This document shows, in pieces, positions 3,801 through 33,807 of a stretch of 34,018 nucleotides of DNA. Position 1 is the first letter of the stretch; each line of letters begins with the position of its first letter. The stretch comes from a virus. Both the position numbers and the translations under genes were made by a program. The stretch covers positions 1 through 34,018 of IMG/VR virus record IMGVR_UViG_3300031629_000034; one strand, 5' to 3'. The notes beneath the pieces were generated by a model that was not told the DNA's origin, searched no databases, and saw only the letters and a program-made list of their open reading frames with translations.

Positions 3801-4562
3801 GAATACACCATCAGCCACACCACCTAGAGCTAAACCTTCTATAACATTCTTCAGTCTACCTTCAGCTTTAGAATCAGTAGGATCAGAAGCCAACCATTCC
3901 ATCATGCTCTTCTCAGCTTCAGGATCTCTGTTTTCCATTTCTACAAACAGATCAGCTATACGTTCAGCGTGAGGGTCAATTACAGTTCCATCAGCTAATG
4001 CTCCAGCTGCTGCGAATTTTACTGTTTGACCACCAGCACCATCTAATACCTTATCTGCTTTATTAGACTTGGTTAGGCCATTGCTTACTGCCCTAGCTAC
4101 CTTACCTGCTTTACCTACAACACCAATAGCTGGTATGAAACCAGTCATTAGCTGTACCATAGAGCGTGCGCCCTGACCAAAACCACTTTCATTAGCGTTG
4201 ATTTCAGGTAGAGTGAATGCGGGATCTTCTAGACCAGCTAGATCAGAGCCAGTCTCTACTAGCTCCTGTACTGCATCACGTGCACCACCAGCTAAAGCAG
4301 AACCTGCCTCAGATGCCCAGAAGCCAAAGCCTTCCTGTTCATCCTCAGGCGTTCCTTGGGCTACCTGAGCTGCTCTAGCTATAGGTTTATTAACTTCTTC
4401 TGATACCTTCTCTTCATCAGCTGCAAGCTGACCACGTGCTAACCTAGCCTTACGCTTCTGCTCCTTCTCATACCAAAAGGCCATTTCTTTTTGTTTAGCC
4501 AGCTGACTCTCATCCTGAACTGCAAGGATGTCCATGTCATTGCTACCATCTTCCTCTATCAT
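849..4562 (-). CDS. Large internal virion protein (T7 gp16-like), 1237 aa
   Basis: A very long protein placed third after gp14- and gp15-like genes and directly before the tail fibre, which is the T7 gp16 position; the length is close to T7 gp16 (about 1318 aa). In T7, gp16 is part of the ejected core that forms a conduit across the cell envelope. The sequence is rich in Ala, Lys and Glu with several amphipathic or hydrophobic stretches, for example around 'MVQLMTGFIPAIGVVGKAGK' near residue 140. The first ~120 residues are charged and I do not see the lytic transglycosylase domain found at the N-terminus of T7 gp16. Assignment rests on position and size more than on motif. A weak hairpin (CAGGG/CCCTG) follows the gene near 823-839. 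Confidence 0.8.
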   Translation of the reverse strand: MIEEDGSNDMDILAVQDESQLAKQKEMAFWYEKEQKRKARLARGQLAADEEKVSEEVNKPIARAAQVAQGTPEDEQEGFGFWASEAGSALAGGARDAVQELVETGSDLAGLEDPAFTLPEINANESGFGQGARSMVQLMTGFIPAIGVVGKAGKVARAVSNGLTKSNKADKVLDGAGGQTVKFAAAGALADGTVIDPHAERIADLFVEMENRDPEAEKSMMEWLASDPTDSKAEGRLKNVIEGLALGGVADGVFKGVKLLRGKYTKAGMEELKVKARTKELEAKAETDLDPNARDIPLDKADEAPVSPAGRETGELDANNKPTHYLDDESNVPKINQRMTDGETPSLAPIEQITSKIVKIGALGSKSVANMTKAIISGDSESVTKAFTDEGVNLRHIDDVEGLRATVDDLTAAMTSKMGEVETQAAVIKLAKSMEMSPEKLKSLHGDTADLGARLAAQHSLNVIQHKEALDLVRAAVDQPTAANTIAANKALEVFGLLRAEIRGTQTQIARGLSHMRIIKGDSDAVAARKLGDLLESQGGTAANQNKFNKIMMLGKELSDEDLDNFVKKSVAGKINSAALELMINSMLSGPQTHVVNALSNFLVSFMGIAERGVAVGRSKIGLAAKDNMQGTGNETLTAGALRSRTMGMFRGVSRAAGITAKGSTAARAALARAASLDFKGAKATIVENKDEFGTMYHSAAKNESIIDPLGKHKTEQGAAEVDAITAENAGLSSKGWLGTVVNVLGTASRMSGRALVTADELFKSVAYTGEMSELIYSKLIRDGVDPSSKEFAERFLALEKNPPQFMQTQSLKRAREDTFTNPLGEKGRNITNAINQIPMARYIIPFVRTPVNILKYAGVRTPVIRRLAKSVNEDIAAGGARADLANAKMNIASVAYLMGTLGAAEGNISGAGGGGTKKSQRAAGWQPYSVKVGDTWYAYDRLDPLSLPLAISASFVEMGSSVSEKEAMARIGDAMIGTLAFAGDKAWFNGLLEITAAVESGNTEGWLRVMKQYPNTFIPLSGTRRAITRSTDKAMMEQYDWLDVIASNTGRTFGLDQVKVDDFGEDRENQDTLGPAWLLPIKKSEISTDKTKQELADLDIQFAKVNRVIGNGKHTTGVKLDKEQYRRFQQLIGKDAKIGGKGFKESLDELIQSKGYQKLFDEDRDFADKHGSLKENRIRKLRTRYKKAAERQLKEEFPSLKQATLDDKYNTRFKLRGIPLPQWLLDARDEDPNNPK

Positions 4563-4579
4563 AAAATTACCTTATTGAA

Positions 4580-6289
4580 TTAATTTGAGTTGGCAGATAC
4601 GAAGTCAGTTGACTCGTCAAAGGTCCTTGGCTTACCTACCTGCAGCTTCTTCCGAGCAGCTTCTTTTGCTACCTCTTCTGCTGCATCATCCTCGGCAAAG
4701 TAGGCGAGGTGTATCTGATACATTTCCTTAGAGATCCACTCACCAGTCATGGCTTCCGCCAAGCCACCTTTTGTTCTATAAATGAAATTAGATCGCTTCT
4801 TTAAGTTCCAAGCTGCATCCATACCCTTCATATTCTCTTTGAACTTATCTGCCCATTTCTTCTGGATACCTGCGTGTTTAGCTGGGTCCTTTTCGTGAGC
4901 TAATTCATTACGAAGTCCTTGGTATGCTGCCTCTTTAGTCTCTTCCTGCCATACATATTCATCACTAGACTTCCAATCAGTCCTGTCCAAGCTACCTTCA
5001 GAAGCTGCAATGTTAACAGCTGCTAGTTTGATAGTAGTCTTACCATCAGCTAGAGCAGTCTTATACTCAAGACTGTTCATGTGCTTAGCTAAACCACTAG
5101 GATCATTGAGTGCTCTTACGGCTGCTGCCTTCTGTGAATCTGTCATTCCATTATCTTGATAGATTGAAAGCTCAGTAACTGAAGGGTCACCCTGTATTAT
5201 CTTTGTCATAGTTTCTGGAAATGCAGCTGCATCAAGGTTCAACAGCTTATCAGTACTAATAAGATTCTTGAGATCAGTAGTAAACATCTGCCCATCTGTA
5301 TAATTTTTAGCAATTAACTCGGCCTTGGCATCATCGAGAGTACCACCACCAGCTAATACTTTGAAAGCAGCTGTACGCATATCTTTAGTATCTTCTGTAT
5401 TTTTGAAATTAACTTTAGCCTGTGTATCAAGGTCATTTTCCTCTGACTTCTTTTCAGCTTTATGTTGAGCATTAGCTAACCTATTCTTGTAAGTTGGATG
5501 TTCTAGCAGCGAAGGTACACCATCGGCATTACCTTTAGCTAACAATTCATATAACTCTTGATCGCCATCTAGTGCAGCTACTTCAACCTGCCTTACCAAA
5601 TCTTCATTCAGCTCCTCAGCAGTTAAACCTGCCTCCTTACCAGAAGCTCGCCATATTTGTAGAGTCTTAACGCTTGCAGGTACATTAGGATCATCTAGCA
5701 TTGTAGTGAGTGCAGTGTTACTATTACTCCTGTTCTCAATTGCTATCTTCTCCATATCCGCTGCTTGTCCACCCATGTTTATCCTTAGGGTTTCAGCTTT
5801 AGTCATCTCTAGAAACTTAACGCCATACTCAGGTGAGCGATCTGCAGTATCAGCCTGTGCCTTCTCACTCCATTCAGCTATAAATGCTTCACGTGTTTGA
5901 TCTTCTGGCTTATTGAGCCATGCTTCATTCATTTCAAGCTTATGCTGGTTAGCTCCAGATATAGCTGACCGTTGATCAAATGCTCTCATGTAAGCTGGTT
6001 CAGCACCTTCTTTAGCTGGTAGCCCTTGGAGTGCTGCAAGTGATCCTTCATCAGTTTCACGCCTGTCTGTAGCTATTCTATTCTTCTGAGCTATCTGTGC
6101 TATCTTAGGGTTTAAATCCTTCAATGCCTTAACTAACCCATCTACTGCATAGTTGTTCTTCTGATCCCGACTAGTATTAATAGGGTTAGCTACAACCTTC
6201 TTTAACTCTGGGTCAGAATCTGGTGTAGCTAAGAAGCGTACTTGCCTTGATGATAGCTTCTGTATTGTAGTTTTAGATTCGCGTGGCAT
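4580..6289 (-). CDS. Internal virion protein (T7 gp15-like), 569 aa
   Basis: A 569-aa, highly charged, largely helical-looking protein rich in Ala, Lys and Glu, starting MPRESKTTIQKLSSRQVRFL at ATG 6289. It lies between a gp14-like gene (6309-6797) and the gp16-like gene (849-4562), matching the T7 order 14-15-16. T7 gp15 (747 aa) forms a tube of the internal core that is ejected into the periplasm with the DNA. The present protein is shorter. No enzymatic motif, signal peptide or membrane segment is visible. Identity is inferred from synteny, size and composition; profile comparison would settle it. Confidence 0.75.
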   Translation of the reverse strand: MPRESKTTIQKLSSRQVRFLATPDSDPELKKVVANPINTSRDQKNNYAVDGLVKALKDLNPKIAQIAQKNRIATDRRETDEGSLAALQGLPAKEGAEPAYMRAFDQRSAISGANQHKLEMNEAWLNKPEDQTREAFIAEWSEKAQADTADRSPEYGVKFLEMTKAETLRINMGGQAADMEKIAIENRSNSNTALTTMLDDPNVPASVKTLQIWRASGKEAGLTAEELNEDLVRQVEVAALDGDQELYELLAKGNADGVPSLLEHPTYKNRLANAQHKAEKKSEENDLDTQAKVNFKNTEDTKDMRTAAFKVLAGGGTLDDAKAELIAKNYTDGQMFTTDLKNLISTDKLLNLDAAAFPETMTKIIQGDPSVTELSIYQDNGMTDSQKAAAVRALNDPSGLAKHMNSLEYKTALADGKTTIKLAAVNIAASEGSLDRTDWKSSDEYVWQEETKEAAYQGLRNELAHEKDPAKHAGIQKKWADKFKENMKGMDAAWNLKKRSNFIYRTKGGLAEAMTGEWISKEMYQIHLAYFAEDDAAEEVAKEAARKKLQVGKPRTFDESTDFVSANSN

Positions 6290-14561: not shown

Positions 14562-14585
14562 CCTTATCCTATACTGTGGGGATAG
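14562..14585 (-). promoter_or_regulatory. Phage RNA polymerase promoter for the virion block
   Basis: The minus strand reads CTAT then CCCCACAGTATAGGATAAGG. This matches T7-family promoter architecture: TATA at -4 to -1, G at +1 (14569), C at -7 and -9. The same sequence occurs at 24772-24795 and 31139-31162, and with one change at 27309-27332, always on the coding strand and in a gene gap. It lies 6 bp downstream of a terminator and about 39 nt upstream of the first virion gene. Confidence 0.9.
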
Positions 14586-14590
14586 AGCAT

Positions 14591-14624
14591 AAAAAACCCC
14601 TAACTATATGATAGCTAAGGGTTT
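14591..14624 (-). terminator. Intrinsic terminator ending the replication block
   Basis: On the minus strand the RNA forms a 14-pair stem (AAACCCUUAGCUAU / AUAGUUAGGGGUUU, two G-U pairs) with a 3-nt loop, followed by a U-run (plus-strand aaaaaa 14591-14596). Both wobble pairs would be C-A mismatches on the other strand, so it is built for minus-strand transcripts. It follows the DUF3310 gene and sits just before the virion promoter. Confidence 0.88.
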
Positions 14625-20154: not shown

Positions 20155-20619
20155 CTATCCTTTAAAGTTTAAGTGGGCCAACCCTTCCCGCATTAAGAAT
20201 TCGTGCACTGAGAAGTGAGGGCAGTCAGTTGTTTCATCTAAGCGACTGTGGCCTACAACAGATATATTACTGAAGCTTGCTTGCATATTACTTAGTAACC
20301 ACGCAAGGTTCTTGAACTGTGCATCAGTGTAATTGTCTTCGCCTTTGCCCCCCTTACCCTTGGCTCTACCACCTATCATACATATGCCCAGTGCTTCACT
20401 ATCATAATCATCTAAGTGAGCACCTGCATTATTCATCGGCCTACCATACTCGATGATGCCATCACGATTGATGACAGCATGATACCCAATAGATAGTTTG
20501 AATTGACTACGGTGTATCCTATCCATCTCCTTCAATCCTATGAACTCATTGGCTTTGGTGAAGCTGCTATGTATAACAATGTACTTCCAAGCCCAAGGTT
20601 CAATATGTTTCATTGCCAT
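20155..20619 (-). CDS. N-acetylmuramoyl-L-alanine amidase (T7 lysozyme, gp3.5-like)
   Basis: 154 aa, T7 lysozyme fold. H17 ('VIHSSFT'), Y46 ('GYHAVINRDG'), H124 ('VVGHSR') and C133 ('DCPHF') match T7 His17, Tyr46, His122 and Cys130. The three zinc ligands and the catalytic Tyr are therefore present. The T7 catalytic Lys128, two residues before the Cys, is replaced by Thr131, and two residues are inserted in that loop. In T7 the protein cuts the peptidoglycan amide bond and also binds and inhibits the phage RNA polymerase, timing the switch to late genes. It lies between endonuclease I and primase, as in T7. Confidence 0.94.
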   Translation of the reverse strand: MAMKHIEPWAWKYIVIHSSFTKANEFIGLKEMDRIHRSQFKLSIGYHAVINRDGIIEYGRPMNNAGAHLDDYDSEALGICMIGGRAKGKGGKGEDNYTDAQFKNLAWLLSNMQASFSNISVVGHSRLDETTDCPHFSVHEFLMREGLAHLNFKG

Positions 20620-22549: not shown

Positions 22550-22722
22550 GACCCTACCACCTTCGCCGACTGTGCTTTCCAGAGTAACTTCCTATCCCAC
22601 CCTTCAGCTTCCACCTCAGCTTTGCTTATCGCATCACTCAGGTAGTAAGCCTCAACGTGGACTACTGGATTCCAAGCACCATCAATGAACTTGATAGGCT
22701 CAAGTACTACTCTATATTTCAC
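22546..22722 (-). CDS. Small protein coupled to ribonucleotide reductase, GTG start (58 aa)
   Basis: GTG 22722 lies inside the last codons of the reductase gene (overlap 11 nt) and gives MKYRVVLEPIKFIDGAWNPV then 'HVEAYYLSDAISKAEVEAEG' and a basic end. The beta-then-helix pattern suggests a small folded domain. The ribosome site is weak (AGGT), so expression may depend on coupling. The following gene starts at ATGA. No family recognised. Confidence 0.5.
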   Translation of the reverse strand: MKYRVVLEPIKFIDGAWNPVVHVEAYYLSDAISKAEVEAEGWDRKLLWKAQSAKVVGS

Positions 22723-24715
22723 ACTGACCTGCAGTGCACGCCAGAGTCTGGGCAGCTACAGTATTGTCCTTATCTTCTATCATCTTCAGCCAGTCAATTC
22801 CTTCTGGCATTTTAGATAGCAGTGCAAGGTACTGTTCTTCCGTGATGTCTTCATAAGGTGCTTGAACATATACGTGGTCCGAGTGTGGCAAGAAACTTAT
22901 ACCCGATATTCTATCGAAGTTCTTCCATACCCAAGCACCTACCTCTACCCATTCATCCTTCTTAACATACACAGTACAGCTTGGCTTGTGCTCACACCAG
23001 TGGTCCTGATATATGAGCCACAGTTCCATCTGTTCCAACGCAGTCATGCCATCCCTAAATATTGCCCCTATTGGAGCCTTCATTGGGAAGGAAGCTACCA
23101 TAGTGGTATCCTTCTTTGCCTCATAGTCTACAAGGGGAAACCCATTGTCTAATAGGAATTGACACACAGGGTCCTTCTTGTCTAACTGAATCCGCCGAAT
23201 ATAATAGTCACCAAACCTAGCGTGAATCCCACTAGCAGAGTCAACGAGCTGAGATACAGTACCAGAAGGCTTGACGCAAGTAATAGCAGTAGACACAGGG
23301 ACATTAAATTTTTCAGCCCAGATAACATTCGTCTTCCGAGCATGATCTCTTAGCTCCTCTAATATTTTAGGTAATCCGCGAGTAAGCTCACGGTGCTGCA
23401 GCATTGCATCCTTCGTGTTGTTCAGTAGTGAACTGTCCATGATACCAGTAAGGCTCACACCAAGTAGTCTCTCTTCATCTGTGTTCTTCTTCCATTCATC
23501 TGAAAGGAACTTGAAGTCTGTGAGTGTTGACTGGTATGTACCGAGTATCGTAGCTAGTTCTATTTTTTTCTTGAGGGTTGAAACTGTATCCGTGGATCTG
23601 ACAACAACTTCCGTAAGGTTACAGAATTGTTTATCTCTGAGTATAATTTCGGAACACGGGTTGCATCCATAATCTCTATCCTTATCTCTGCGCCCCCATC
23701 TAGCTGCTTGATTCTGTGCAGCCACTCTGTTAAAAATCCCTCGCTCACCTGACCCTGACTTAACCAGACTGAGCCACTCTTCCATATAACTTTCAACATC
23801 TGGTTTCTCCGTGTAACATACTGAATTGTTAGCTAACATACGGTGTGGGTTGCCACCTTCTTCTGCAGGTAAATACCACTGCCCCATTTTTGCTTCTCTC
23901 ATTCTATTATCAGTTAGGTTAGACAAGCCTATCAGAGCACTTCTTCGTACCCCACCTACGACCACAATATCCCCTATCATGCAGACAATATCATGTACCT
24001 CTAGACTGTTTAACTTCCTACCTTGTGCTGCCTTGAATGTGTTAGTCACGAACACGAACAGATTCCTTAACGGCAAAGGTCCAGATGCTCGACCACCAAA
24101 TGTCTTGAGTCGTGCACCTGCAGGTCGTATCTTAGTATAGTCTATTGTAGGTATGTCACCTTCCCACATAGAACCCATTAGCTTACGAAATGCTACAGCC
24201 CACCCCTTCTTAGAATCTGCTACGACTATCACATCGTCTGAGATTTCTAGCTTAGGTATAGTGGGTAACTTGCTAATAACATCACGCTCGTTGCTGAACC
24301 CTACGCCTGTACCATTCATCAGTATGTATAGAGCTTCACTGAATGAACGCTTAGTACTCATGGCTACATAGGCACAATTAAATGCTGAGATATTATCACG
24401 TTCACAGGCTTCACCTGATGTCATAAGCAAACGCATTGAGGGCATAACCTCTAGCTTAGCTATTGCATTGTGAAGGTCCTGATAATTTTTGGTACTCAAA
24501 GGCACTTTAGTTGCCATGTAATCCATGTATCTTGTTACTGTTTCTTCCCACGATTCCCTTCTCTTTTTATCTTCCAAGTACCTTGCATATTTTGTAACAT
24601 GGATAATATCTTGATAGGTTGTAGGTAATTTCTTTGCTGTCATAGTTGGTGCGTTCCATAAGTTGATAGCAGGTAGTGACAAGTCAGGCCACTCTACTAT
24701 AGTTCTGTTAGCCAT
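22712..24715 (-). CDS. nrdJ: Adenosylcobalamin-dependent (class II) ribonucleotide reductase, 667 aa
   Basis: Reduces ribonucleotides to deoxyribonucleotides using a B12 cofactor. Matches to the monomeric triphosphate reductase of Lactobacillus leichmannii: C354 and E356 in 'GCNPCSEI' (C408/E410, thiyl radical and acid), redox pair C114 and C365 (C119/C419; spacing C354-C365 is identical), and the C-terminal shuttle pair C660/C665 in 'ACTAGQCEI' (C731/C736, same spacing). 'CVKPSGTVSQLVDSASGIHA' is the conserved phosphate-binding loop region. Slightly shorter than the bacterial enzyme (739 aa). First gene after the polymerase terminator and under its own phage promoter. T7 itself has no reductase; marine phages often do. 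Confidence 0.95.
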   Translation of the reverse strand: MANRTIVEWPDLSLPAINLWNAPTMTAKKLPTTYQDIIHVTKYARYLEDKKRRESWEETVTRYMDYMATKVPLSTKNYQDLHNAIAKLEVMPSMRLLMTSGEACERDNISAFNCAYVAMSTKRSFSEALYILMNGTGVGFSNERDVISKLPTIPKLEISDDVIVVADSKKGWAVAFRKLMGSMWEGDIPTIDYTKIRPAGARLKTFGGRASGPLPLRNLFVFVTNTFKAAQGRKLNSLEVHDIVCMIGDIVVVGGVRRSALIGLSNLTDNRMREAKMGQWYLPAEEGGNPHRMLANNSVCYTEKPDVESYMEEWLSLVKSGSGERGIFNRVAAQNQAARWGRRDKDRDYGCNPCSEIILRDKQFCNLTEVVVRSTDTVSTLKKKIELATILGTYQSTLTDFKFLSDEWKKNTDEERLLGVSLTGIMDSSLLNNTKDAMLQHRELTRGLPKILEELRDHARKTNVIWAEKFNVPVSTAITCVKPSGTVSQLVDSASGIHARFGDYYIRRIQLDKKDPVCQFLLDNGFPLVDYEAKKDTTMVASFPMKAPIGAIFRDGMTALEQMELWLIYQDHWCEHKPSCTVYVKKDEWVEVGAWVWKNFDRISGISFLPHSDHVYVQAPYEDITEEQYLALLSKMPEGIDWLKMIEDKDNTVAAQTLACTAGQCEI

Positions 24716-24771: not shown

Positions 24772-24795
24772 CCTTATCCTATACTGTGGGGATAG
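24772..24795 (-). promoter_or_regulatory. Phage RNA polymerase promoter for the reductase/replication block
   Basis: The minus strand reads CTAT then CCCCACAGTATAGGATAAGG, identical to the copies at 14562-14585 and 31139-31162. Predicted +1 is G at 24779, leaving about 64 nt of leader before the ribonucleotide reductase ATG. It lies about 15 bp downstream of the terminator that ends the polymerase gene, so the replication block can be driven independently of host transcription. Confidence 0.9.
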
Positions 24796-24809
24796 AACCC
24801 CAGACGTAC

Positions 24810-24832
24810 AAAAGCCACCCGAAGGTGGCCCC
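24810..24832 (-). terminator. UUCG-loop intrinsic terminator after the RNA polymerase gene
   Basis: On the minus strand: GCCACC (24829-24824), UUCG tetraloop, GGUGGC, then UUUUG. The stem is strong and extends by G-rich bases on the 5' side. It follows the polymerase stop by about 25 bp and probably stops host RNA polymerase at the end of the early region, like the T7 early terminator. Confidence 0.88.
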
Positions 24833-24857: not shown

Positions 24858-27269
24858 CTAGCTAAACATATACTCAGATTCCAGTATTTCATCAACTTTC
24901 AAATCCCCCATTACAGGCACCTCAGGCAGTACTGTACCCTCAGGAAGTTGGGATAAAACATCATCCCTGAAGTTCTGCATTACTGGTTGCTTATAGATGT
25001 CCACGAAGGCCCTCCTGAGTTCATACTGTAACTGGTCAGCACATCCTGCATGGGTACCGTAGCTATCATGAATCATTGCGAAGCTATCCACACCCACTTC
25101 AGAACAGTAGTTGACCGTCAGCATCAAGGCTGCAGCATCTAGACTATGTACAAAGTTGGGAGAAATGCCCCGTCTCTGCTTCATCTTGTCTACTTTGCCA
25201 TTCTCATATTGCATTACCACCGTAATCCGTCTACCCAGCATCATCCAGTCAGGGCGGTCAGCTGTGGTCCCCTGCTTAAACTGCAGCACGGGCAAACCTG
25301 CTGGACTAGTCCATTTAATAGGCAGCCCAGTACTGGAGGCTACATTAGCCACATCCTTGAGCCACTCCATGGCACCCTCAGAGGCTGCAACCACTGTAGC
25401 TATGGCCTTATGGTTCATTTTAGCGATATAGTCACTATCAGCGTAGTTATAGGTCACACCATCGGCTAATAACTTCTCCCGCATACCATCTAAAACGGTC
25501 ATGACTTGGTTAGACTTCCCGTTATCCCCTACGCCATAGGGCGTGGTCATGGCGTTCTGCTTAACCATCTTTCTGTCGATGTAGTTTATCCACTTCTCCG
25601 CCATCGGGTCAGTATCACTAGCCATCAAGCCAACCACCTGCTCAGCTACTAGCGTATAAACGTCTGGAGGGGTGCCCTCAGCGTTATTTAATAAACCCAC
25701 TGCTCTACTACCCCCTTCATCCCTAAGCATCGCTGCGAAGTGCTGAAGGCCATTACAGGTGCCATCAAATGCAACGGGTAGATGTGAGATATACTCTGAC
25801 CTACTACTTGCCATCAGCATACGTGACCACTCAAAGCAAAAAGCTAGGAACTGATAAGGCTTGTCTGCTTGTTGCCAGAACTCGCAGTCCAGCGGGTTTA
25901 GTGTAGATTCTAGTATGCCATCAGTAAATTTTTCTACCCAGTCAACCCTTTGATCAAATGTACCTTTCTCACCGTACACATTTGCACCGTGTACCGCTAA
26001 CCAATACGCGCCATTATCACCTAGAGCTTTACCCCTAGCAAATGTGAGCAGTGCCTTGGATACATCATCACCCTGAGGATTTAAACCATTAGGTATGGGA
26101 TATATACGGCCCCTGAAGTCTAGAGTGTATGGAAAATAAAACTGCTCCTCACCTTTAAACTGCTCCGCTAGGCTTAGCTTCATGCTCAGCTGTAGCCGTA
26201 TTGAATCGTTACGGTTTAGAGCCTTATAATATATAGTCATTTCCTTTTTATACTTAATTAGCTGTTCAGGGCTCAGGTTCTGTGATGGTTTAACTGGCGG
26301 GGTGTCAGCATCTGCAGCTGGTAAGCCTCCTATCAGGCCACCTTGTGCCCATGCCTTGTCCAGTACCGTATACACGGGCTTATTAACTTTCCACGCGGTG
26401 TCCTGCATCTTATTGACTGCATTGTATACTAGTGGGATGCTGTGGTTGGCTAGTTCCTTCATGTAACGGTGGTTGGATGTTTTGATGAACTTGTAACTTT
26501 GACTAGATGTCAAATATCCCCCATTTGTTGGGGTGCTCCAGTCTAAGGGCTTACAGATCATAGGCTTTCTGGATGGTGCCTGTAGTTCACACCTGCCATG
26601 CGCTGACTTTAGGTGTTCCCTTAGGGCATCAGTCATGGTGACAAGGCTGCAGCTGGACCGCTTAGTACCCGCCTTTATCGTTACTAGCTTCAGGTAGCCT
26701 GTGGTTTGTCTCATAAGTTCAACTAGGAATATACCTAAGCGAAGTCTGGTGCTTCTATCCCACTGGATCTGCTCCACTTTTCCCCATTCCATCTGGCGTT
26801 TAACTATTACCCATAGGCGGTCAGTGCCCAGAGTAGGGAACTTTTTTATCTTGTGGTTGTACTGGTCAAATGCTGGTTTATTCTCAGCCCGCAACTTCTC
26901 ATAGTTAAGCATACTATTGAGCCGTTCACTTATCTTTAAAGCTGTATGAGCTAGAGACTTATTTTTGACCATAACTTCTAGTACTGTCTTCATGGTTATG
27001 TATGCCACTTGATCAGGATCAAACTGGGAGATATACTTTAAATGAGAGCTACCCTTGCAACCATACCCAGACAAGCCTTTATTAACTTGGGTAGTAATGA
27101 CAGTAGAGAAGGTATCCAGAGTATCATTCATTAAGCGATTACCAACTACACTTTCGCTGATGCCCCGACTATCTACATTATCTCTATATTGTTTAATGCC
27201 CTCCTGCAGACAATCGCCCTCAATAGCCCTTTGTCTGTCCTGTAATTGCTGTTCTGTTTCAGTGCTCAT
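24858..27269 (-). CDS. Single-subunit DNA-directed RNA polymerase (T7 gp1-like), 803 aa
   Basis: Motif A 'AFDGTCNGLQHFAAMLRDEG' (D502, T7 D537). Motif B 'DRKMVKQNAMTTPYGVGD' (R566, K570, Y578, with the same spacing as T7 R627, K631, Y639). Motif C 'MIHDSYGTHA' (D735, T7 D812). 'GISPNFVHSLDA' has the conserved His (H708). The C-terminus 'SEYMFS' resembles the T7 'foot' (…FAFA). About 80 residues shorter than T7 RNAP (883 aa). It would transcribe from the four matching promoters in this window. The gene is downstream of the early operon, and one promoter copy lies in front of the gene itself. Start ATG 27269 with AGGAG upstream. Confidence 0.97.
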   Translation of the reverse strand: MSTETEQQLQDRQRAIEGDCLQEGIKQYRDNVDSRGISESVVGNRLMNDTLDTFSTVITTQVNKGLSGYGCKGSSHLKYISQFDPDQVAYITMKTVLEVMVKNKSLAHTALKISERLNSMLNYEKLRAENKPAFDQYNHKIKKFPTLGTDRLWVIVKRQMEWGKVEQIQWDRSTRLRLGIFLVELMRQTTGYLKLVTIKAGTKRSSCSLVTMTDALREHLKSAHGRCELQAPSRKPMICKPLDWSTPTNGGYLTSSQSYKFIKTSNHRYMKELANHSIPLVYNAVNKMQDTAWKVNKPVYTVLDKAWAQGGLIGGLPAADADTPPVKPSQNLSPEQLIKYKKEMTIYYKALNRNDSIRLQLSMKLSLAEQFKGEEQFYFPYTLDFRGRIYPIPNGLNPQGDDVSKALLTFARGKALGDNGAYWLAVHGANVYGEKGTFDQRVDWVEKFTDGILESTLNPLDCEFWQQADKPYQFLAFCFEWSRMLMASSRSEYISHLPVAFDGTCNGLQHFAAMLRDEGGSRAVGLLNNAEGTPPDVYTLVAEQVVGLMASDTDPMAEKWINYIDRKMVKQNAMTTPYGVGDNGKSNQVMTVLDGMREKLLADGVTYNYADSDYIAKMNHKAIATVVAASEGAMEWLKDVANVASSTGLPIKWTSPAGLPVLQFKQGTTADRPDWMMLGRRITVVMQYENGKVDKMKQRRGISPNFVHSLDAAALMLTVNYCSEVGVDSFAMIHDSYGTHAGCADQLQYELRRAFVDIYKQPVMQNFRDDVLSQLPEGTVLPEVPVMGDLKVDEILESEYMFS

Positions 27270-27308: not shown

Positions 27309-27332
27309 CCTTATCCTATACTGTGGGAATAG
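27309..27332 (-). promoter_or_regulatory. Variant phage promoter in front of the RNA polymerase gene
   Basis: The minus strand reads CTATTCCC then ACAGTATAGGATAAGG. It is identical to the other three copies except C to T at about -12. Predicted +1 is G at 27316, 47 nt upstream of the polymerase ATG. This suggests that the polymerase amplifies its own expression, perhaps from a weaker site. Confidence 0.85.
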
Positions 27333-27334
27333 AA

Positions 27335-27535
27335 CTATACTAGGTTAGCATTAAATAAATTATGATAGCCACTCATTCTGTATGTGGTATTGACTAGATA
27401 TAAATCTTTACCTATTTCACGCACAAAGTCGTGCTCCAGTGCCTTCTGTAACAATTCATCCTCACCATATTCAAAATTTAAGGATGGTGCCTGATTAATC
27501 CAAAGTTCTGCTTTGCTCATAGTTACTTCGCTCAT
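27335..27535 (-). CDS. Hypothetical early protein (66 aa)
   Basis: MSEVTMSKAELWINQAPSLN from ATG 27535 with an AGGGG ribosome site. Small soluble protein with an acidic middle ('FEYGEDELLQKALEHDFVRE') and a Tyr-rich C-terminus. Last gene before the polymerase, at the end of the early operon fed by the promoter at 29182-29210. No family recognised. Its stop codon lies 3 bp from the phage promoter. Confidence 0.65.
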   Translation of the reverse strand: MSEVTMSKAELWINQAPSLNFEYGEDELLQKALEHDFVREIGKDLYLVNTTYRMSGYHNLFNANLV

Positions 27536-27560
27536 ATTACCTGCCCCTCTAATTGATTAA

Positions 27561-27749
27561 TTAAAAAAATGAGACTCCACGGCTAATGAAAAAAGCTACC
27601 CCAGTTATTACAGCTGAAGACATTAGCATAATGCTGGCCCATACGAATACTAAACCTAGGGTGCCTCCTGCTATCTTAGGTATATCTTTTACCGTAGGCT
27701 GCCCGAATCTCATGTTTACTTTGTAATGCTCTATAGCCTTTTTTTTCAA
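27561..27749 (-). CDS. Membrane protein, TTG start (62 aa)
   Basis: No ATG is available; TTG 27749 follows a strong AAGGGGG ribosome site. The protein reads MKKKAIEHYKVNMRFGQPTV in a cytoplasmic-looking basic N-terminus, then a hydrophobic stretch ('GLVFVWASIMLMSSAVITGV') and a short tail. One or two membrane passes are possible. No family recognised. Early timing suggests an envelope-directed takeover function such as superinfection exclusion, but this is a guess from class only. Confidence 0.6.
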   Translation of the reverse strand: MKKKAIEHYKVNMRFGQPTVKDIPKIAGGTLGLVFVWASIMLMSSAVITGVAFFISRGVSFF

Positions 27750-27759
27750 TGGTTCCCCC

Positions 27760-28098
27760 TTAAAATTGTTGGATTAGGTATCTAATTTCTATTAAGCCCG
27801 AATCGCTGCTAGTCTCTTTTACCCTGTATATCTGTGTACGATCCTGCACCCAGTCTATCCCCTCGCGCATTGTCATGCCTTGTAATTCGGTGTAATTTGA
27901 CTGTAGTTCGGCCCAAGTATCATACTCCATCCACTCGCAACAGATACCAATTACATCTAATTCTATTGGATCACTGTACGTTTCACATTCTTCATAATGC
28001 TTAAACAATACACTCAATGCTTCATATGAGAACTGGTCACCCCTTCCCATATTACAGAACGCATCTCTAAATTCAAACTCATTTATAGTTGTATACAT
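27760..28098 (-). CDS. Conserved phage hypothetical protein (112 aa)
   Basis: MYTTINEFEFRDAFCNMGRG then 'DQFSYEALSVLFKHYEE' and 'PIELDVIGICCEWMEYDTWA'. The pattern 'F.Y..L..LF.Y.EE...ELDVI.ICC...EY' recurs in small proteins of many lytic phages, without a known function. Acidic, soluble, Cys pair in 'ICCEW'. ATG 28098 is preceded by AAAAGGGG. It lies in the middle of the early operon. Confidence 0.75.
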   Translation of the reverse strand: MYTTINEFEFRDAFCNMGRGDQFSYEALSVLFKHYEECETYSDPIELDVIGICCEWMEYDTWAELQSNYTELQGMTMREGIDWVQDRTQIYRVKETSSDSGLIEIRYLIQQF

Positions 28099-28100
28099 GA

Positions 28101-28352
28101 TTAGCTACCCCTTTTAACTACATTATTAAATTTAGTTGTGACTGACACCCATTGGGAGCTGTAAACTCTGGCCTTTTCTCTTTGCATACCATACTTAGCA
28201 CTAATAATCAACCTGCCAACATAGTTTACAACAAAAAATAGCCCAGTTTTCGCCTCCTTATAAACATCTGAACTCACATTACTACCGAATTGTGAATTTT
28301 CTTCTACCCAGCTTTTACTGTCTAGCTTGTACTTCAATTCGTATGTTTTCAT
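28101..28352 (-). CDS. Hypothetical early protein (83 aa)
   Basis: MKTYELKYKLDSKSWVEENS from ATG 28352, which overlaps the stop of the preceding gene by 4 nt. A basic, beta-rich looking protein with 'KTGLFFVVNYVGRLIISAKY' and a Lys/Arg-rich second half. No family recognised. Part of a chain of overlapping small early genes, and only 2 nt before the next start. Confidence 0.65.
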   Translation of the reverse strand: MKTYELKYKLDSKSWVEENSQFGSNVSSDVYKEAKTGLFFVVNYVGRLIISAKYGMQREKARVYSSQWVSVTTKFNNVVKRGS

Positions 28353-28558
28353 ATTTGTTCCCCTCGATTATAATCATCAGTCCAATTTGCAAATACAGTA
28401 GATAATTTAGGTACAGGCTTCACCCATATTCTGTCATTGTCACCGTCTACGACCTCGCCCATCTCTGCTATTGCTATTTCGTACTCTTCCCGCCTTATCT
28501 CTGATTCTTCTGTGAGCTTGGCGTTGTCGTAGTCTTCCTTCTCTTCATAGTAGCTCAT
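28349..28558 (-). CDS. Strongly acidic hypothetical early protein (69 aa)
   Basis: MSYYEEKEDYDNAKLTEESE from ATG 28558 (TAATG overlap with the upstream stop). About 19 Asp/Glu against about 8 Lys/Arg, with acids concentrated in the first 45 residues; the C-terminal part is 'PVPKLSTVFANWTDDY'. Small, acidic early phage proteins include DNA mimics such as T7 Ocr, but the similarity here is only in charge. No family recognised. Confidence 0.65.
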   Translation of the reverse strand: MSYYEEKEDYDNAKLTEESEIRREEYEIAIAEMGEVVDGDNDRIWVKPVPKLSTVFANWTDDYNRGEQI

Positions 28559-28785
28559 TACTTAACCCCCTTTTTATGTAGTTGCTCTAGTAGTACATCA
28601 CGGGCTAGGCCCAGTGCCTTGACTTCCTCACCAACCATGTAGATATATGTGGTCATAGTACCTTTAGCTAGTCGGAAATGTAAAGTGCGCTCCAGTTCTT
28701 TCCGTTCTCGCATCATATTCAGTAATGTCAAGTACTGCTTAACCTCACTAACTGATAAATTACTATCTGTAATTACTTGGCTCAT
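28558..28785 (-). CDS. Hypothetical early protein (75 aa)
   Basis: MSQVITDSNLSVSEVKQYLT followed by a helical, basic/acidic alternating sequence ('LLNMMRERKELERTLHFRLA') and 'YIYMVGEEVKALGLARDVLL'. It looks like an all-helical small protein. ATG 28785 overlaps the stop of the 35-aa membrane protein (TAATG) and its own stop overlaps the next start. No family recognised. Confidence 0.65.
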   Translation of the reverse strand: MSQVITDSNLSVSEVKQYLTLLNMMRERKELERTLHFRLAKGTMTTYIYMVGEEVKALGLARDVLLEQLHKKGVK

Positions 28786-28892
28786 TATAGTTTAGCTCCT
28801 CGTTCTAAATATGCTGTTATAAGGATTACTGGAGTGCCTACAGCCACCGCCACGACCATGTAAAAGAAAATCACGTCTAGACTATTCATCAT
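28785..28892 (-). CDS. Membrane microprotein (35 aa)
   Basis: MMNSLDVIFFYMVVAVAVGT then 'PVILITAYLERGAKL': one transmembrane segment of about 22 residues with a short basic cytoplasmic-type tail. ATG 28892 (or 28889) is preceded by GAGGAGGAA, which also codes the end of the previous gene; the two overlap by 11 nt. The stop overlaps the next ATG. Function unknown; evidence is the strong ribosome site and the unbroken chain of overlaps. Confidence 0.55.
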   Translation of the reverse strand: MMNSLDVIFFYMVVAVAVGTPVILITAYLERGAKL

Positions 28893-29007
28893 TGTCTTCC
28901 TCCTCTCGTAGAGCTTCTCCAAGTTCTGTTATAAAGTGCTGCGCGTTGCCTTGTGCTCCTAGTGCTTCTGTTAGTGCTTCCATGTTTAACTGATATGTGA
29001 TAATCAT
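28882..29007 (-). CDS. Small acidic protein (41 aa)
   Basis: MIITYQLNMEALTEALGAQG then 'NAQHFITELGEALREEEDND'. It starts at TAATG directly overlapping the stop of the 40-aa membrane protein, and its 3' end carries the ribosome site of the next gene. Helical and acidic. No family recognised. An inner Met (MEALTEA) could also be the start. Confidence 0.5.
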   Translation of the reverse strand: MIITYQLNMEALTEALGAQGNAQHFITELGEALREEEDNDE

Positions 29008-29129
29008 TATTTGATGTCCTGTATCATGGTGCGGTTAAAAATCAAATACATCCATATTGCGTAGACTATCATGTGTAACCCAAATATTACTAGTCCTGTG
29101 GTGGTTGCTGGTTCGATAACGTGTTCCAT
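29007..29129 (-). CDS. Membrane microprotein, first gene after early promoter 3 (40 aa)
   Basis: ATG 29129 lies right after the conserved early leader (AGGAGACTTACAAA), the same leader that precedes the proteins starting at 29890 and 29574. The product is MEHVIEPATTTGLVIFGLHM then 'IVYAIWMYLIFNRTMIQDIK': one transmembrane segment (about residues 11-33) with a charged tail. The shared leader and promoter are strong evidence that this short frame is translated. Function unknown; early membrane proteins in T7-like phages are often takeover or exclusion factors. Confidence 0.65.
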   Translation of the reverse strand: MEHVIEPATTTGLVIFGLHMIVYAIWMYLIFNRTMIQDIK

Positions 29130-29181
29130 TTTGTAAGTCTCCTGTGTTGCTGTTAAGGGTTTGTTGCTACCCGATGACTGA

Positions 29182-29210
29182 AGTATGCCTGAGAGTTAAA
29201 CCTGTGTCAA
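29182..29210 (-). promoter_or_regulatory. Early sigma70-type promoter 3
   Basis: Minus strand: TTGACA (29210-29205), 17-bp spacer, CATACT (29187-29182). The start of transcription is expected near 29175, giving about a 46-nt leader ending AGGAGACTTACAAAATG. The -35 box is perfect and the -10 matches 4 of 6. It is the third of three repeated cassettes and feeds the operon of small genes that leads into the RNA polymerase gene. Confidence 0.85.
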
Positions 29211-29229
29211 CCCCTCAGGCCAAATTAAT

Positions 29230-29574
29230 TTATTTATCTTGAAGTACGGCAATTTCTTCGCTAAGTGCTAACCATTCATCATGCCAGTAACTAGCACTTT
29301 CTTTGCTAGCTGCTAGTTTATCTATTTCAATATTTCTTTTGTTGTACATGGACTCGTAATCCTGCTCAAGTTCTGCATACTTATCTGCTGCGTCAACTAA
29401 CTTGAATTCTCTATTCTGTATGGTTTGTTTATAATTTTCTATTTCATTCTTGTGATCTTTCTTAATCCCTTTTATATAGAGCTTCATGTTTTCTTTGTTT
29501 TCTTCTAAGTGTCTGTTATCCGTAGCTATACTTTTAATTAATTTCTTTAGTTCTGGTTTAGTAAATGTTTTCAT
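29230..29574 (-). CDS. Coiled-coil early protein (114 aa)
   Basis: ATG 29574 (MKTFTKPELKKLIKSIATDN) is preceded by GGAGACTTACAAA, the same leader end as in the early cassettes; an in-frame upstream start at 29595 would spoil that match. The protein is Lys/Glu-rich and predicted almost fully coiled coil ('ELEQDYESMYNKRNIEIDKL'). No catalytic motif. It is the second gene of the unit driven by promoter 2 and shares its leader and general plan with the preceding 91-aa gene, perhaps as a distant duplicate. Confidence 0.65.
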   Translation of the reverse strand: MKTFTKPELKKLIKSIATDNRHLEENKENMKLYIKGIKKDHKNEIENYKQTIQNREFKLVDAADKYAELEQDYESMYNKRNIEIDKLAASKESASYWHDEWLALSEEIAVLQDK

Positions 29575-29591
29575 TTTGTAAGTCTCCAGTT

Positions 29592-29607
29592 GCACCCCAA
29601 AGGGTGC
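29592..29607 (-). promoter_or_regulatory. Short hairpin between two early genes
   Basis: On the minus strand GCACCC, loop UUUG, GGGUGC sits between the stop at 29615 and the ribosome site before ATG 29574. No U-run follows, so it is more likely an RNase processing or stability element than a terminator. T7 early mRNAs are cut by RNase III at comparable places, but this stem is short. Confidence 0.4.
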
Positions 29608-29614
29608 GGTTAAT

Positions 29615-29890
29615 TTAGTCTTCTTCTTCCATTCTTATACATTGGTTGGCTCTTGCTAGTTCTTCTTTAATTCCCTCGTATGCTTCTTGCAATTCTTCCC
29701 GTTCTGCATTAAGTTTTTCCATATCTTCTTTAATCCATTTTACCTGAAAATAGTGGTCTTCCCGTATTTCCCGTACAACCGCTTTGGTGTGCAGTAGTTC
29801 TTCTTTAAGTTCTTTTCGTTCTTGATTATATTTTCCTGTAAGCTCGCACTGTGCAAGATACATACTTTCTACCATTAGTAATGTCTTCAT
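29615..29890 (-). CDS. Coiled-coil early protein (91 aa)
   Basis: Start ATG 29890 (MKTLLMVESMYLAQCELTGK) lies directly after the conserved leader of promoter 2; a longer frame to 30046 reads through the promoter and is rejected. The product is highly charged and helical ('REELQEAYEGIKEELARANQ'), ending in 'RMEEED'. It shares the MKT start and charged coiled-coil plan with the next gene. No known family. Confidence 0.7.
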   Translation of the reverse strand: MKTLLMVESMYLAQCELTGKYNQERKELKEELLHTKAVVREIREDHYFQVKWIKEDMEKLNAEREELQEAYEGIKEELARANQCIRMEEED

Positions 29891-29942
29891 TTTGTAAGTC
29901 TCCTGTGTTGCTGTTAAGGGCTTGTTGCCACCCGATGTCTGA

Positions 29943-29971
29943 AGTATGCCTGAAGGTTTATGTACTGTCAA
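29943..29971 (-). promoter_or_regulatory. Early sigma70-type promoter 2
   Basis: Minus strand: TTGACA (29971-29966), 17-bp spacer, CATACT (29948-29943), then a leader almost identical to that of promoter 3. Upstream, a TAAATAAATTAATTTGGCC block beginning at the stop of the previous gene is shared with promoter 3. GCCTGA and TCAGGC form an inverted repeat flanking the -35 box and spacer, possibly an operator. Confidence 0.85.
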
Positions 29972-29990
29972 CCCCTCAGGCCAAATTAAT

Positions 29991-30482
29991 TTATTTAGAG
30001 ATTTTAACCAGTGTCCTGTAATGTAATCTCTGGATGTTATAACCACCTGCTAAGATTGTCTCAATGTTGATTTCCTTGCTACCGTCATTTGTTTCTACCA
30101 TGTAGCAACCATGGAATCCATCAGCACTATACTCGAGGTTTGACTTGATGATTCTAGTAATACCAACAGCCTCTAGCTTCTTTGCTATTCTAAAGTTCCT
30201 TTTCTTGATAATAAAGTTGGATGCTTTCACTGCCAACTCTGTAACTGTTTTGATATTCTTGGCATACTTGAAATCATTATACATTCCAGCACCACCACAT
30301 ATACTCTCAAACTTAGCTATTTTTGCATAGTATTCTTCACGATTAAAACGTGGGTTAAATACAACACTATCTCTGTACTCAATGTATGCGCTGTATCGCT
30401 CAGTATAGTAGGCAACCTGCTTCTCTGTATATATAGCATCGAATCTTTTAAATGCTACCTCTAGATCTGTGGTTATAGTCAT
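29991..30482 (-). CDS. First early gene, unknown protein (163 aa)
   Basis: MTITTDLEVAFKRFDAIYTE from ATG 30482, preceded by AGGAGACTTACCGA and promoter 1. Basic overall, Tyr-rich and mostly helical in the first two thirds ('YYTERYSAYIEYRDSVVF', 'KKRNFRIAKKLEAVGITRII'), ending with a beta-like part 'GYNIQRLHYRTLVKISK'. I recognise no family. It would be the first gene to enter and be read in a new cell, the place of T7 gene 0.3 (Ocr, anti-restriction), so an anti-defence or host-control role is plausible from position only. Unlike Ocr it is not acidic. Confidence 0.8.
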   Translation of the reverse strand: MTITTDLEVAFKRFDAIYTEKQVAYYTERYSAYIEYRDSVVFNPRFNREEYYAKIAKFESICGGAGMYNDFKYAKNIKTVTELAVKASNFIIKKRNFRIAKKLEAVGITRIIKSNLEYSADGFHGCYMVETNDGSKEINIETILAGGYNIQRLHYRTLVKISK

Positions 30483-30538: not shown

Positions 30539-30567
30539 AGTATGCCTGAAGGTTTACCCTGTGTCAA
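30539..30567 (-). promoter_or_regulatory. Early sigma70-type promoter 1
   Basis: Minus strand: TTGACA (30567-30562), 17-bp spacer, CATACT (30544-30539), followed by a leader similar to those of promoters 2 and 3 and ending AGGAGACTTACCGAATG. Just upstream of the -35 box is an inverted repeat (gatgta-tatc-tacatc, about 30570-30586) not present at the other two promoters, possibly a regulator site or UP-like element. Confidence 0.85.
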
Positions 30568-30615
30568 GTAGATGTATATCTACATCACACCTATTTAGTA
30601 GATGTAGTATTCTCT

Positions 30616-30703
30616 TGGTTATCTGTTGGTTGTCTACTGGTTGTCTACTGGTTGTCTACTGGTTGTCTGTTGGTTGTCTACTGGTTGTCTGTTGGTTGTC
30701 TAC
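30616..30703. repeat. Eight tandem 11-bp repeats near the genome end
   Basis: Unit TGGTTGTCTAC (plus strand), with TGGTTGTCTGT and one TGGTTATCTGT variant, repeated eight times without gaps and followed by a partial unit. No coding frame uses it. T7 has arrays of short repeats just inside both terminal repeats, and this array has the same relation to the first early promoter as the left-end array of T7. Confidence 0.95.
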
Positions 30704-31055
30704 TGGTTTAACTACCAGATAAAAAAACAGTAGGGGCCCCATGAACACCTAAAGCTAAACCATCAGTCACACCAGCAGCCACACCACCACCACAGTACCC
30801 ATCGTTCACCCCTTGTTTAACTGCTGGTTGTGCTCAATGTTAAACCTGTAGCGCACCATCAGCTAAACCTGCAGCTCACCAGCTGTATATACATGGAGGC
30901 TGGCCTGAGGCTGGCAGCTAGGGCCTTGTTGTTGTTTGACTGCTGGTTTTCTACAGGTTTGACCAGAGGTCGAGGGGGGAGAAGGTCCATGGCGGTATAT
31001 AAGGTACCCTCTCATATTTTAGTAACAAATAGTACTCCGAGATATATACATGTTT

Positions 31056-31138: not shown

Positions 31139-31162
31139 CCTTATCCTATACTGTGGGGATAG
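31139..31162 (-). promoter_or_regulatory. Phage RNA polymerase promoter after the terminase gene (phiOR position)
   Basis: The minus strand reads CTAT then CCCCACAGTATAGGATAAGG, identical to the copies at 24772 and 14562. Predicted +1 is 31146. It follows the terminase stop by about 42 bp and drives transcription into the non-coding end region, where no gene benefits directly. In T7 the corresponding end promoter phiOR is linked to replication and packaging. Confidence 0.9.
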
Positions 31163-31204
31163 AGGCTAGATATTCTGTAACCTCTTGTTTAACTACAGGA
31201 TACA

Positions 31205-33137: not shown

Positions 33138-33373
33138 TTGTTTCTGGGGGTAATAGAGAAGATTTGTTCAAGCAGATCCTTCCCTAAGAACCAGAATACG
33201 CTGCAGGTAACAGCTATTGTTGATAATATTTTCACCATCTTAACCATACCATCTGCAGTTGTCCAAGCATCCAGTAATGCCTCTACTGAAGTGTCTAATT
33301 TATCTAGCTTAACGTGTAGTGCTTTTACTTCTACCTTCATTAATTCAAATTCAACCTTATCCTGCTCTGTCAT
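33134..33373 (-). CDS. Holin-like membrane protein (79 aa)
   Basis: MTEQDKVEFELMKVEVKALH: a charged, coiled-coil N-terminal half ('VKLDKLDTSVEALLDAW'), then one transmembrane segment 'VKILSTIAVTCSVFWFLG' and a basic end 'FSITPRNK'. It lies immediately before the small terminase gene, where T7 has its holin gene 17.5 (67 aa, one membrane segment). Starts and stops overlap both neighbours as ATGA. Holin function is inferred from position and topology; an XhlA-like lysis accessory protein is an alternative. Confidence 0.65.
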   Translation of the reverse strand: MTEQDKVEFELMKVEVKALHVKLDKLDTSVEALLDAWTTADGMVKMVKILSTIAVTCSVFWFLGKDLLEQIFSITPRNK

Positions 33374-33807
33374 TTCTTTTTCCCTTTGTGTAATAGCTGT
33401 GTTTGTATTGGTAGACTGCTAAAAACATCTAGCTGCGCTGCCACTCGTATTGCTTGTTCAGGTGTTTTACCGAGGTGCATAGCAGTCTGAGCAACCATCG
33501 CTCCACTACCAATACACATACTCTTCCCTATCACCTTATCTGGTCCGAATGTGCTACACCAGAAGAACAAACCATTAGCATTAAGTGTCAATGCTGCAAA
33601 GTCCTCTGTTTCATCATACTCTGGTGTATTATCTTCATCTGGATCGTTATACCACGCTAGGAACTTCTCAATGGCTACACAATCTCCTGCACATCCAATG
33701 ATTGTTCTGTCTATAATAATTATCTTCTCAGCTAAATAAGGTAAAGCTCCTGTTGTAACTTGTGAATCACTGTAAATCCCCTTGCGAGTTCCTATAATAG
33801 TAGTCAT
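33370..33807 (-). CDS. HslV/proteasome-like Ntn hydrolase (145 aa)
   Basis: MTTIIGTRKGIYSDSQVTTG: Met followed by Thr-Thr, as in the HslV peptidase, whose catalytic N-terminal Thr is exposed by Met removal. Further HslV-like features in order: 'SDSQVTTG' (HslV 'GDGQATLG'), a Lys about 14 residues later (K28), 'TIIGCAGD' (HslV 'VIAGFAGG'), and 'IGSGAMVAQTAMHLG' then 'TPEQAIRVAAQLD' (HslV 'IGSGGPYAQAAARA'). It is shorter than HslV (about 175 aa) and ends in a Lys-rich tail 'HKGKKK'. No HslU-type ATPase is encoded nearby. Substrate unknown: it could process a virion protein, degrade host proteins or work with host HslU. Confidence 0.75.
   Translation of the reverse strand: MTTIIGTRKGIYSDSQVTTGALPYLAEKIIIIDRTIIGCAGDCVAIEKFLAWYNDPDEDNTPEYDETEDFAALTLNANGLFFWCSTFGPDKVIGKSMCIGSGAMVAQTAMHLGKTPEQAIRVAAQLDVFSSLPIQTQLLHKGKKK

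Follow-up and report, generated by a model that had tools for sequence, protein, structure and literature searches.

A putative autoregulatory promoter in front of the RNA polymerase gene of an uncultivated T7-like phage

The window analysed here, which is the whole 34,018-base stretch of the viral record IMGVR_UViG_3300031629_000034, carries on its minus strand a gene for a single-subunit T7-type RNA polymerase (RNAP) of 803 aa (24858..27269; phrog_414, E 1.9e-218; Pfam RNA_pol, E 3.6e-104). The residues that align with T7 D537, K631, Y639, H811 and D812 are all identical, and the 40 RNAP matches listed share 32-36% identity with the window polymerase. A search of the minus-strand ORFs also identified ribonucleotide reductase, a single-stranded DNA-binding protein (with a Pfam score slightly below the cut-off), endonuclease I, an amidase, a primase-helicase, DNA polymerase, an exonuclease, the head-tail adaptor, scaffold, capsid and tail genes; upstream of the RNAP come the terminase and the small early genes. 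A T7-type RNAP, a DNA polymerase, a primase-helicase and structural genes resembling those of T7 all lie on one strand, which places the window in the Autographiviridae as a T7-like podovirus; the ten best named phages show 49-58% identity in the head-tail adaptor and 50-52% in the terminase. The ribonucleotide reductase gene (22712-24715, minus strand; phrog_367) follows directly after the RNAP gene with its own phage promoter and has a Pfam match to the insertion domain of the B12-dependent type. Near the terminase genes an ORF (33370-33807, minus strand) matches phrog_1040, annotated as peptidase HslV family (E 5e-28), with no Pfam match, and noncoding 11-bp tandem repeats are present at approximately 30600-30720 between the terminase and early genes, possibly near the genome ends.

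A 25-nt element, TCTATCCCCACAGTATAGGATAAGG, has four matches in the window when up to three mismatches are allowed, all on the minus strand, compared with a mean and a maximum of 0 in 100 dinucleotide shuffles. The first copy (31139..31163) is upstream of the early region, in a place comparable to that of T7 phiOL; the second (27309..27333) precedes the RNAP gene; the third (24772..24796) follows the RNAP gene and its terminator-like hairpin, precedes the ribonucleotide reductase gene and has A+T-rich DNA downstream; and the fourth (14562..14586) comes directly after a terminator hairpin, ahead of the head-tail adaptor gene and the structural genes. All four are located between ORFs of the minus strand, in the orientation of the identified genes, and all contain GTATAGG, that is a TATA initiation segment followed by G at +1. 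Three of the copies are identical. The copy at 27333-27309 departs from them once, with T instead of C as its sixth base; counted from the first G of TATAGG as +1 (27316), this is position -12. This copy fits between the stop of a 66-aa ORF (ending at 27335) and the RNAP start, and the predicted +1 is 47 nt from the A of the RNAP ATG at 27269, with AGGAG in the leader ahead of the ATG. A preliminary description had placed a variant phage promoter at 27309-27332, differing from three other copies only at about -12 and lying 47 nt upstream of the RNAP start. The search for the four copies and the distance from 27316 to 27269 bear out both statements and the element itself is real, but the direction of reading is that of the minus strand, and the block that is repeated extends as far as 27333. 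The locus thus has a phage promoter within approximately 150 nt upstream of the RNAP gene and on its strand, as is characteristic of the autoregulated arrangement exemplified by phi1 of LUZ100 and phi1 of gh-1.

Three copies of a sigma-70-like host promoter, TTGACA-17-CATACT, are found on the minus strand at 30539..30567, 29943..29971 and 29182..29210. The window has no others, and all three run in the direction of the genes inside repeated blocks, the second and third being within a 110-nt block that is repeated at 90% identity. The related contig L002 (84-91% identical in DNA) has two near-copies of this promoter, of the form TTGACA-17-CATAAT. The three window copies appear to be near-copies of one promoter cassette with its leader, apparently multiplied by duplication. 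A general sigma-70 scan returned 42 sites where 28.4 were expected, a modest excess, and a general terminator scan returned 7 where 7.0 were expected, which is chance level; single scan sites therefore mean little and it is the repetition that carries weight. Directly after the RNAP gene there is a terminator-like hairpin (24814..24829, minus strand; GCCACC TTCG GGTGGC, then TTTTG), which was the only one found in a stricter minus-strand hairpin scan of 31200-24700. The fold z of 0.27 for this hairpin was obtained with a stretch that lacked the final base of the stem as well as the T run and says nothing; the support for this terminator comes from the hairpin scans. A strong hairpin with a T run (14590..14624, minus strand) precedes the 14586 promoter, with a folding energy of -16.3 kcal/mol that was reached by 0 of 200 shuffles. 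The hairpin before the 31163 promoter gave a z of -1.63, with 14 of 200 shuffles equally stable, and a hairpin in the RNAP leader had no stable fold (z -0.67).

The presence of such elements in other phages was assessed by a repeat test, in which a 20-mer within the 250 nt before the RNAP gene was scored for recurrence elsewhere on the same strand against 40 random windows per genome. A result was counted as clear, by a criterion set after the scores had been seen, when a fraction of at most 0.05 of the random windows did as well and there were at least three copies. Eight of the 19 genomes gave a clear result (the window, LUZ100, gh-1, RHEph01, CRP-171, BB8, TRX32-1 and YIMV22061), a proportion that gives no family-wide frequency because the 19 were picked as relatives and landmarks. 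CRP-118 (0.07), P-SSP7 (0.17) and S2B (0.38) fell short of the criterion, and no such copy was found in the test of T7, SP6, ICP3, HTVC119P, Syn5, jiawei, ProddE or CRP-403. The RNAPs of jiawei and S2B are no more distant from that of the window than the LUZ100 enzyme is (35.5-36.0% identity), yet jiawei showed no such copy and S2B was not clear. Of the eight phages that passed, three have a private base in the RNAP copy (the window, RHEph01 and YIMV22061, one each) and five have none; the idea that RNAP copies are weaker as a general rule was rejected on this count. Wider searches added little: promoter patterns in the viral collection revealed no additional lineage with the full element and a pattern scan of the genome collection gave 0 matches. 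A sequence three mismatches from the window element, GCAATCCGCACAGTATAGGATAAGG, was noted in L031 at approximately 4890-4915 (minus strand). Of 17 distant RNAP loci 12 were tested; the other five were three contigs of the same kind as the window and two that have hardly any sequence upstream. L095 has a repeated promoter-like motif upstream of its RNAP with a score of 9, which was also the largest score of 25 random windows, and L099 scored 4, with a palindromic motif, against a largest random score of 3; the scores of the other ten did not exceed those of their random windows. As these loci are nearly all fragments, a missing motif says little. Repeated CACTAATGTAT-type sequences upstream of the RNAP genes of L093 and L099 are possibly operator sites.

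It was possible to read both the promoter motif and the specificity loop of the polymerase in seven phages, which are related and hence not independent, the comparison being uncorrected for kinship and the +1 of gh-1, CRP-171 and BB8 having been placed by eye. In T7, according to PMC5937735, residue 748 contacts -10 and -11, residue 756 contacts -9 and residue 758 contacts -8. Across the seven phages a C at -11 occurs with Asp at T7 position 748 (4/4) and a G with Asn or Lys (3/3), a C at -9 occurs with Arg at 756 (5/5) and a T with Leu (2/2), and the base at -8 and residue 758 change together. The base at -10 does not track residue 748 strictly, and -7 and residue 746 are invariant. The co-variation of the loop-facing bases -11, -9 and -8 with loop residues, together with the positions of the four copies and the gapless match to the LUZ100 promoter motif, makes it very likely that the element is the cognate promoter of the window polymerase. 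The matched set of promoter bases and specificity-loop residues may also be used to predict new polymerase-promoter pairs.

A cognate promoter before the RNAP gene would give rise to positive feedback. Host RNA polymerase would transcribe the early region, including the RNAP gene, from the three sigma-70-like promoters, whose repetition upstream means that it could supply the first RNAP mRNA, and it would halt at the hairpin directly after the gene. Newly made phage polymerase would then re-read the RNAP gene, starting at the phage promoter whose +1 is 47 nt from the ATG, and would also read toward it from the 31163 copy. With the phage polymerase reading its own gene from the 27316 and 31163 sides, its synthesis would be self-amplifying. 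The sequence itself shows the element, where it lies, its agreement with the specificity loop, the host-type promoters and the hairpin; that each site is transcribed, and that feedback follows in this order, is what we infer. The phage promoter before the RNAP gene would thus probably act as a self-amplifying switch, of which other phages have already provided examples, and the reading as a whole, namely an autoregulatory promoter with a first round by the host, subsequent self-amplification and a tolerated T at -12, is one to which we would assign a probability of about 0.85. The positive feedback that the preliminary description had proposed is supported as a likely consequence of the arrangement, and in the LUZ100 paper the same arrangement is reported and feedback proposed (PMC10134795).

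Two other functions of the element may be considered. It is repeated, and the promoter role has been read from the sequence, so that it might instead be the binding site of another regulator. The TATAGG start, the constant orientation of the copies, the match to the LUZ100 promoter motif and the agreement with the specificity-loop residues all speak against this, and we regard it as extremely improbable. Alternatively, the RNAP-side copy might mainly prime replication or serve DNA entry, rather than feedback on the RNAP. There is a precedent in T7, where the promoters phi1.1A/B, which adjoin gene 1, prime the primary replication origin. In the window, however, it is the 24796 copy that fits such a role better, being located just after the RNAP gene with A+T-rich DNA downstream, while the 27309 copy is followed by the 47-nt leader with AGGAG before the ATG that would be expected of an mRNA start. 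Priming as the main function of this copy is accordingly considered very unlikely.

The deviating base at -12 raises the question of whether the promoter has been adaptively weakened, which would prevent runaway of an autocatalytic loop. The position is not a free one in general, since C is found there in 16 of 17 T7 promoters and also in the LUZ100 and RHEph01 motifs, and for the same reason the T is probably derived. A review gives -12 to -8 as the recognition region and lists -12 among the T3/T7 specificity determinants (PMC11617373), and the specificity-loop contacts have been given as -11 to -7 (PMC5937735). The earlier placement of -12 in the recognition part is therefore correct, albeit at its edge, and the naming of -12 as a determinant together with its constancy in T7 makes an effect of the base possible. 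Weakening could also draw on the single private bases in the RNAP copies of RHEph01 and YIMV22061, but the five of eight phages without one argue in the opposite direction. The closest relatives are also at odds with it. The near-identical contigs L001 and L003/L011 (the latter being one contig) share the T, but L002 has C at -12 before its RNAP gene, and in L010 (from the same metagenome as L002, 95% identical) the base at -12 of the capsid-side promoter, which is not the RNAP one, is A. Across seven distinct sites both substitutions are at -12 and none are at the other 24 positions, a coincidence for which the chance expectation is 1 in 25, although the evidence for tolerance comes from two substitutions, both in contigs from a single other metagenome. 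Of the 100 bases upstream of the RNAP copy 19 differ between L002 and the window, against 1 of 25 within the copy, and the 35 bases that follow are as conserved as the element (1/35 differ). The flanks are equally conserved at the early copy (2/100 upstream bases and 0/25 in the element differ) and at the capsid-side copy (4/100 and 1/25).

Two further features weigh against weakening. The canonical 31163 copy also reads toward the RNAP, with no strong hairpin terminator found between, and a brake on the loop may exist elsewhere: T7 lysozyme inhibits T7 RNAP, and the T7-lysozyme-like amidase of the window (20155..20619, minus strand) is by analogy a candidate for the same role. The suggestion of the preliminary description that the site is tuned down is thus not supported by the bases at -12 in L002 and L010 or by the five phages with no private base; deliberate weakening is currently disfavoured and we think it unlikely. 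Most likely the T at -12 is a tolerated substitution at what appears to be the least constrained position of the element. A different form of damping could involve an 8-bp palindrome, TACTAGTA, which has only two occurrences in the window (31124 and 27301, minus strand), at distances of 22 and 15 nt downstream of +1 in the 31139 and 27309 promoters, both of which read toward the RNAP, and which is also present at both corresponding promoters in L002. Inverted repeats of the size of AATACTACTAGTATT, a palindrome that follows the promoter, are not commoner in the window (8) than in three mononucleotide shuffles (7, 18 and 11). That TACTAGTA is an operator through which an unrecognised early protein restrains the loop, the -12 base being another point at which evolution could adjust it, is a highly doubtful proposition.

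The reading of the element as an autoregulatory promoter can be set against what is known of other phages. T7 (NC_001604) resembles the window in the order of its genes, in the host promoters A1-A3 that precede gene 1, in having phiOL further upstream and a phage promoter after gene 1, and in its lysozyme, and differs in having no phage promoter directly before gene 1. The contrast drawn earlier between the window and T7, in which the polymerase gene was said to be read mainly by the host enzyme, is softened by the presence of phiOL upstream of gene 1 and by the phage-promoter motifs that other T7-like phages have directly before their RNAP genes. A promoter-like repeat starts 44-118 nt before the RNAP gene in Rhizobium phages RHEph01 and TRX32-1, Roseobacter phage CRP-171, Bordetella phage BB8 and Limnohabitans phage YIMV22061, with motifs that are unlike that of the window and are known here from the repeat test; RHEph01, CRP-171 and BB8 have an annotated integrase upstream of the RNAP.

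The top-listed RNAP relative is LUZ100 (OP329100; 34.7% identity). The publication on this phage reports eight phage-specific promoters, of which five come from transcriptome data and the remaining three were added by motif and by hand, and phi1, directly before the RNAP, is linked by the authors to a lysis/lysogeny switch as well as to positive feedback (PMC10134795). LUZ100 phi1 is located at 4051-4100, directly before its RNAP, and the LUZ100 motif aligns with the window element without gaps, 13 of 20 positions being equal when read by eye; both phages also have three sigma-70-like early promoters. They differ in that genes for a MarR-like regulator and an integrase precede the RNAP gene of LUZ100, the two marks of the LUZ100-type MarR-controlled lysogeny switch. 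In the window neither was recognised with Pfam or PHROGs among nine minus-strand ORFs of at least 60 aa in 27335-30482, most of which have no match of any kind, in a record that may be incomplete. In this respect the window resembles gh-1 (NC_004665), which has the arrangement with no annotated integrase: its putative phage promoter phi1 is annotated at 939-961, approximately 100 nt before the RNAP (1058), although its motif is another one (AAAACCCTCACTATGG) and phi1 is separated from the RNAP by an annotated host promoter, A4. The window would thus represent an uncultivated phage with a cognate promoter before its RNAP and no recognised integrase in that region. This points to an arrangement that is independent of lysogeny. 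The placing of a phage promoter before the RNAP gene is already known from LUZ100 and gh-1, and to these the window adds a member.
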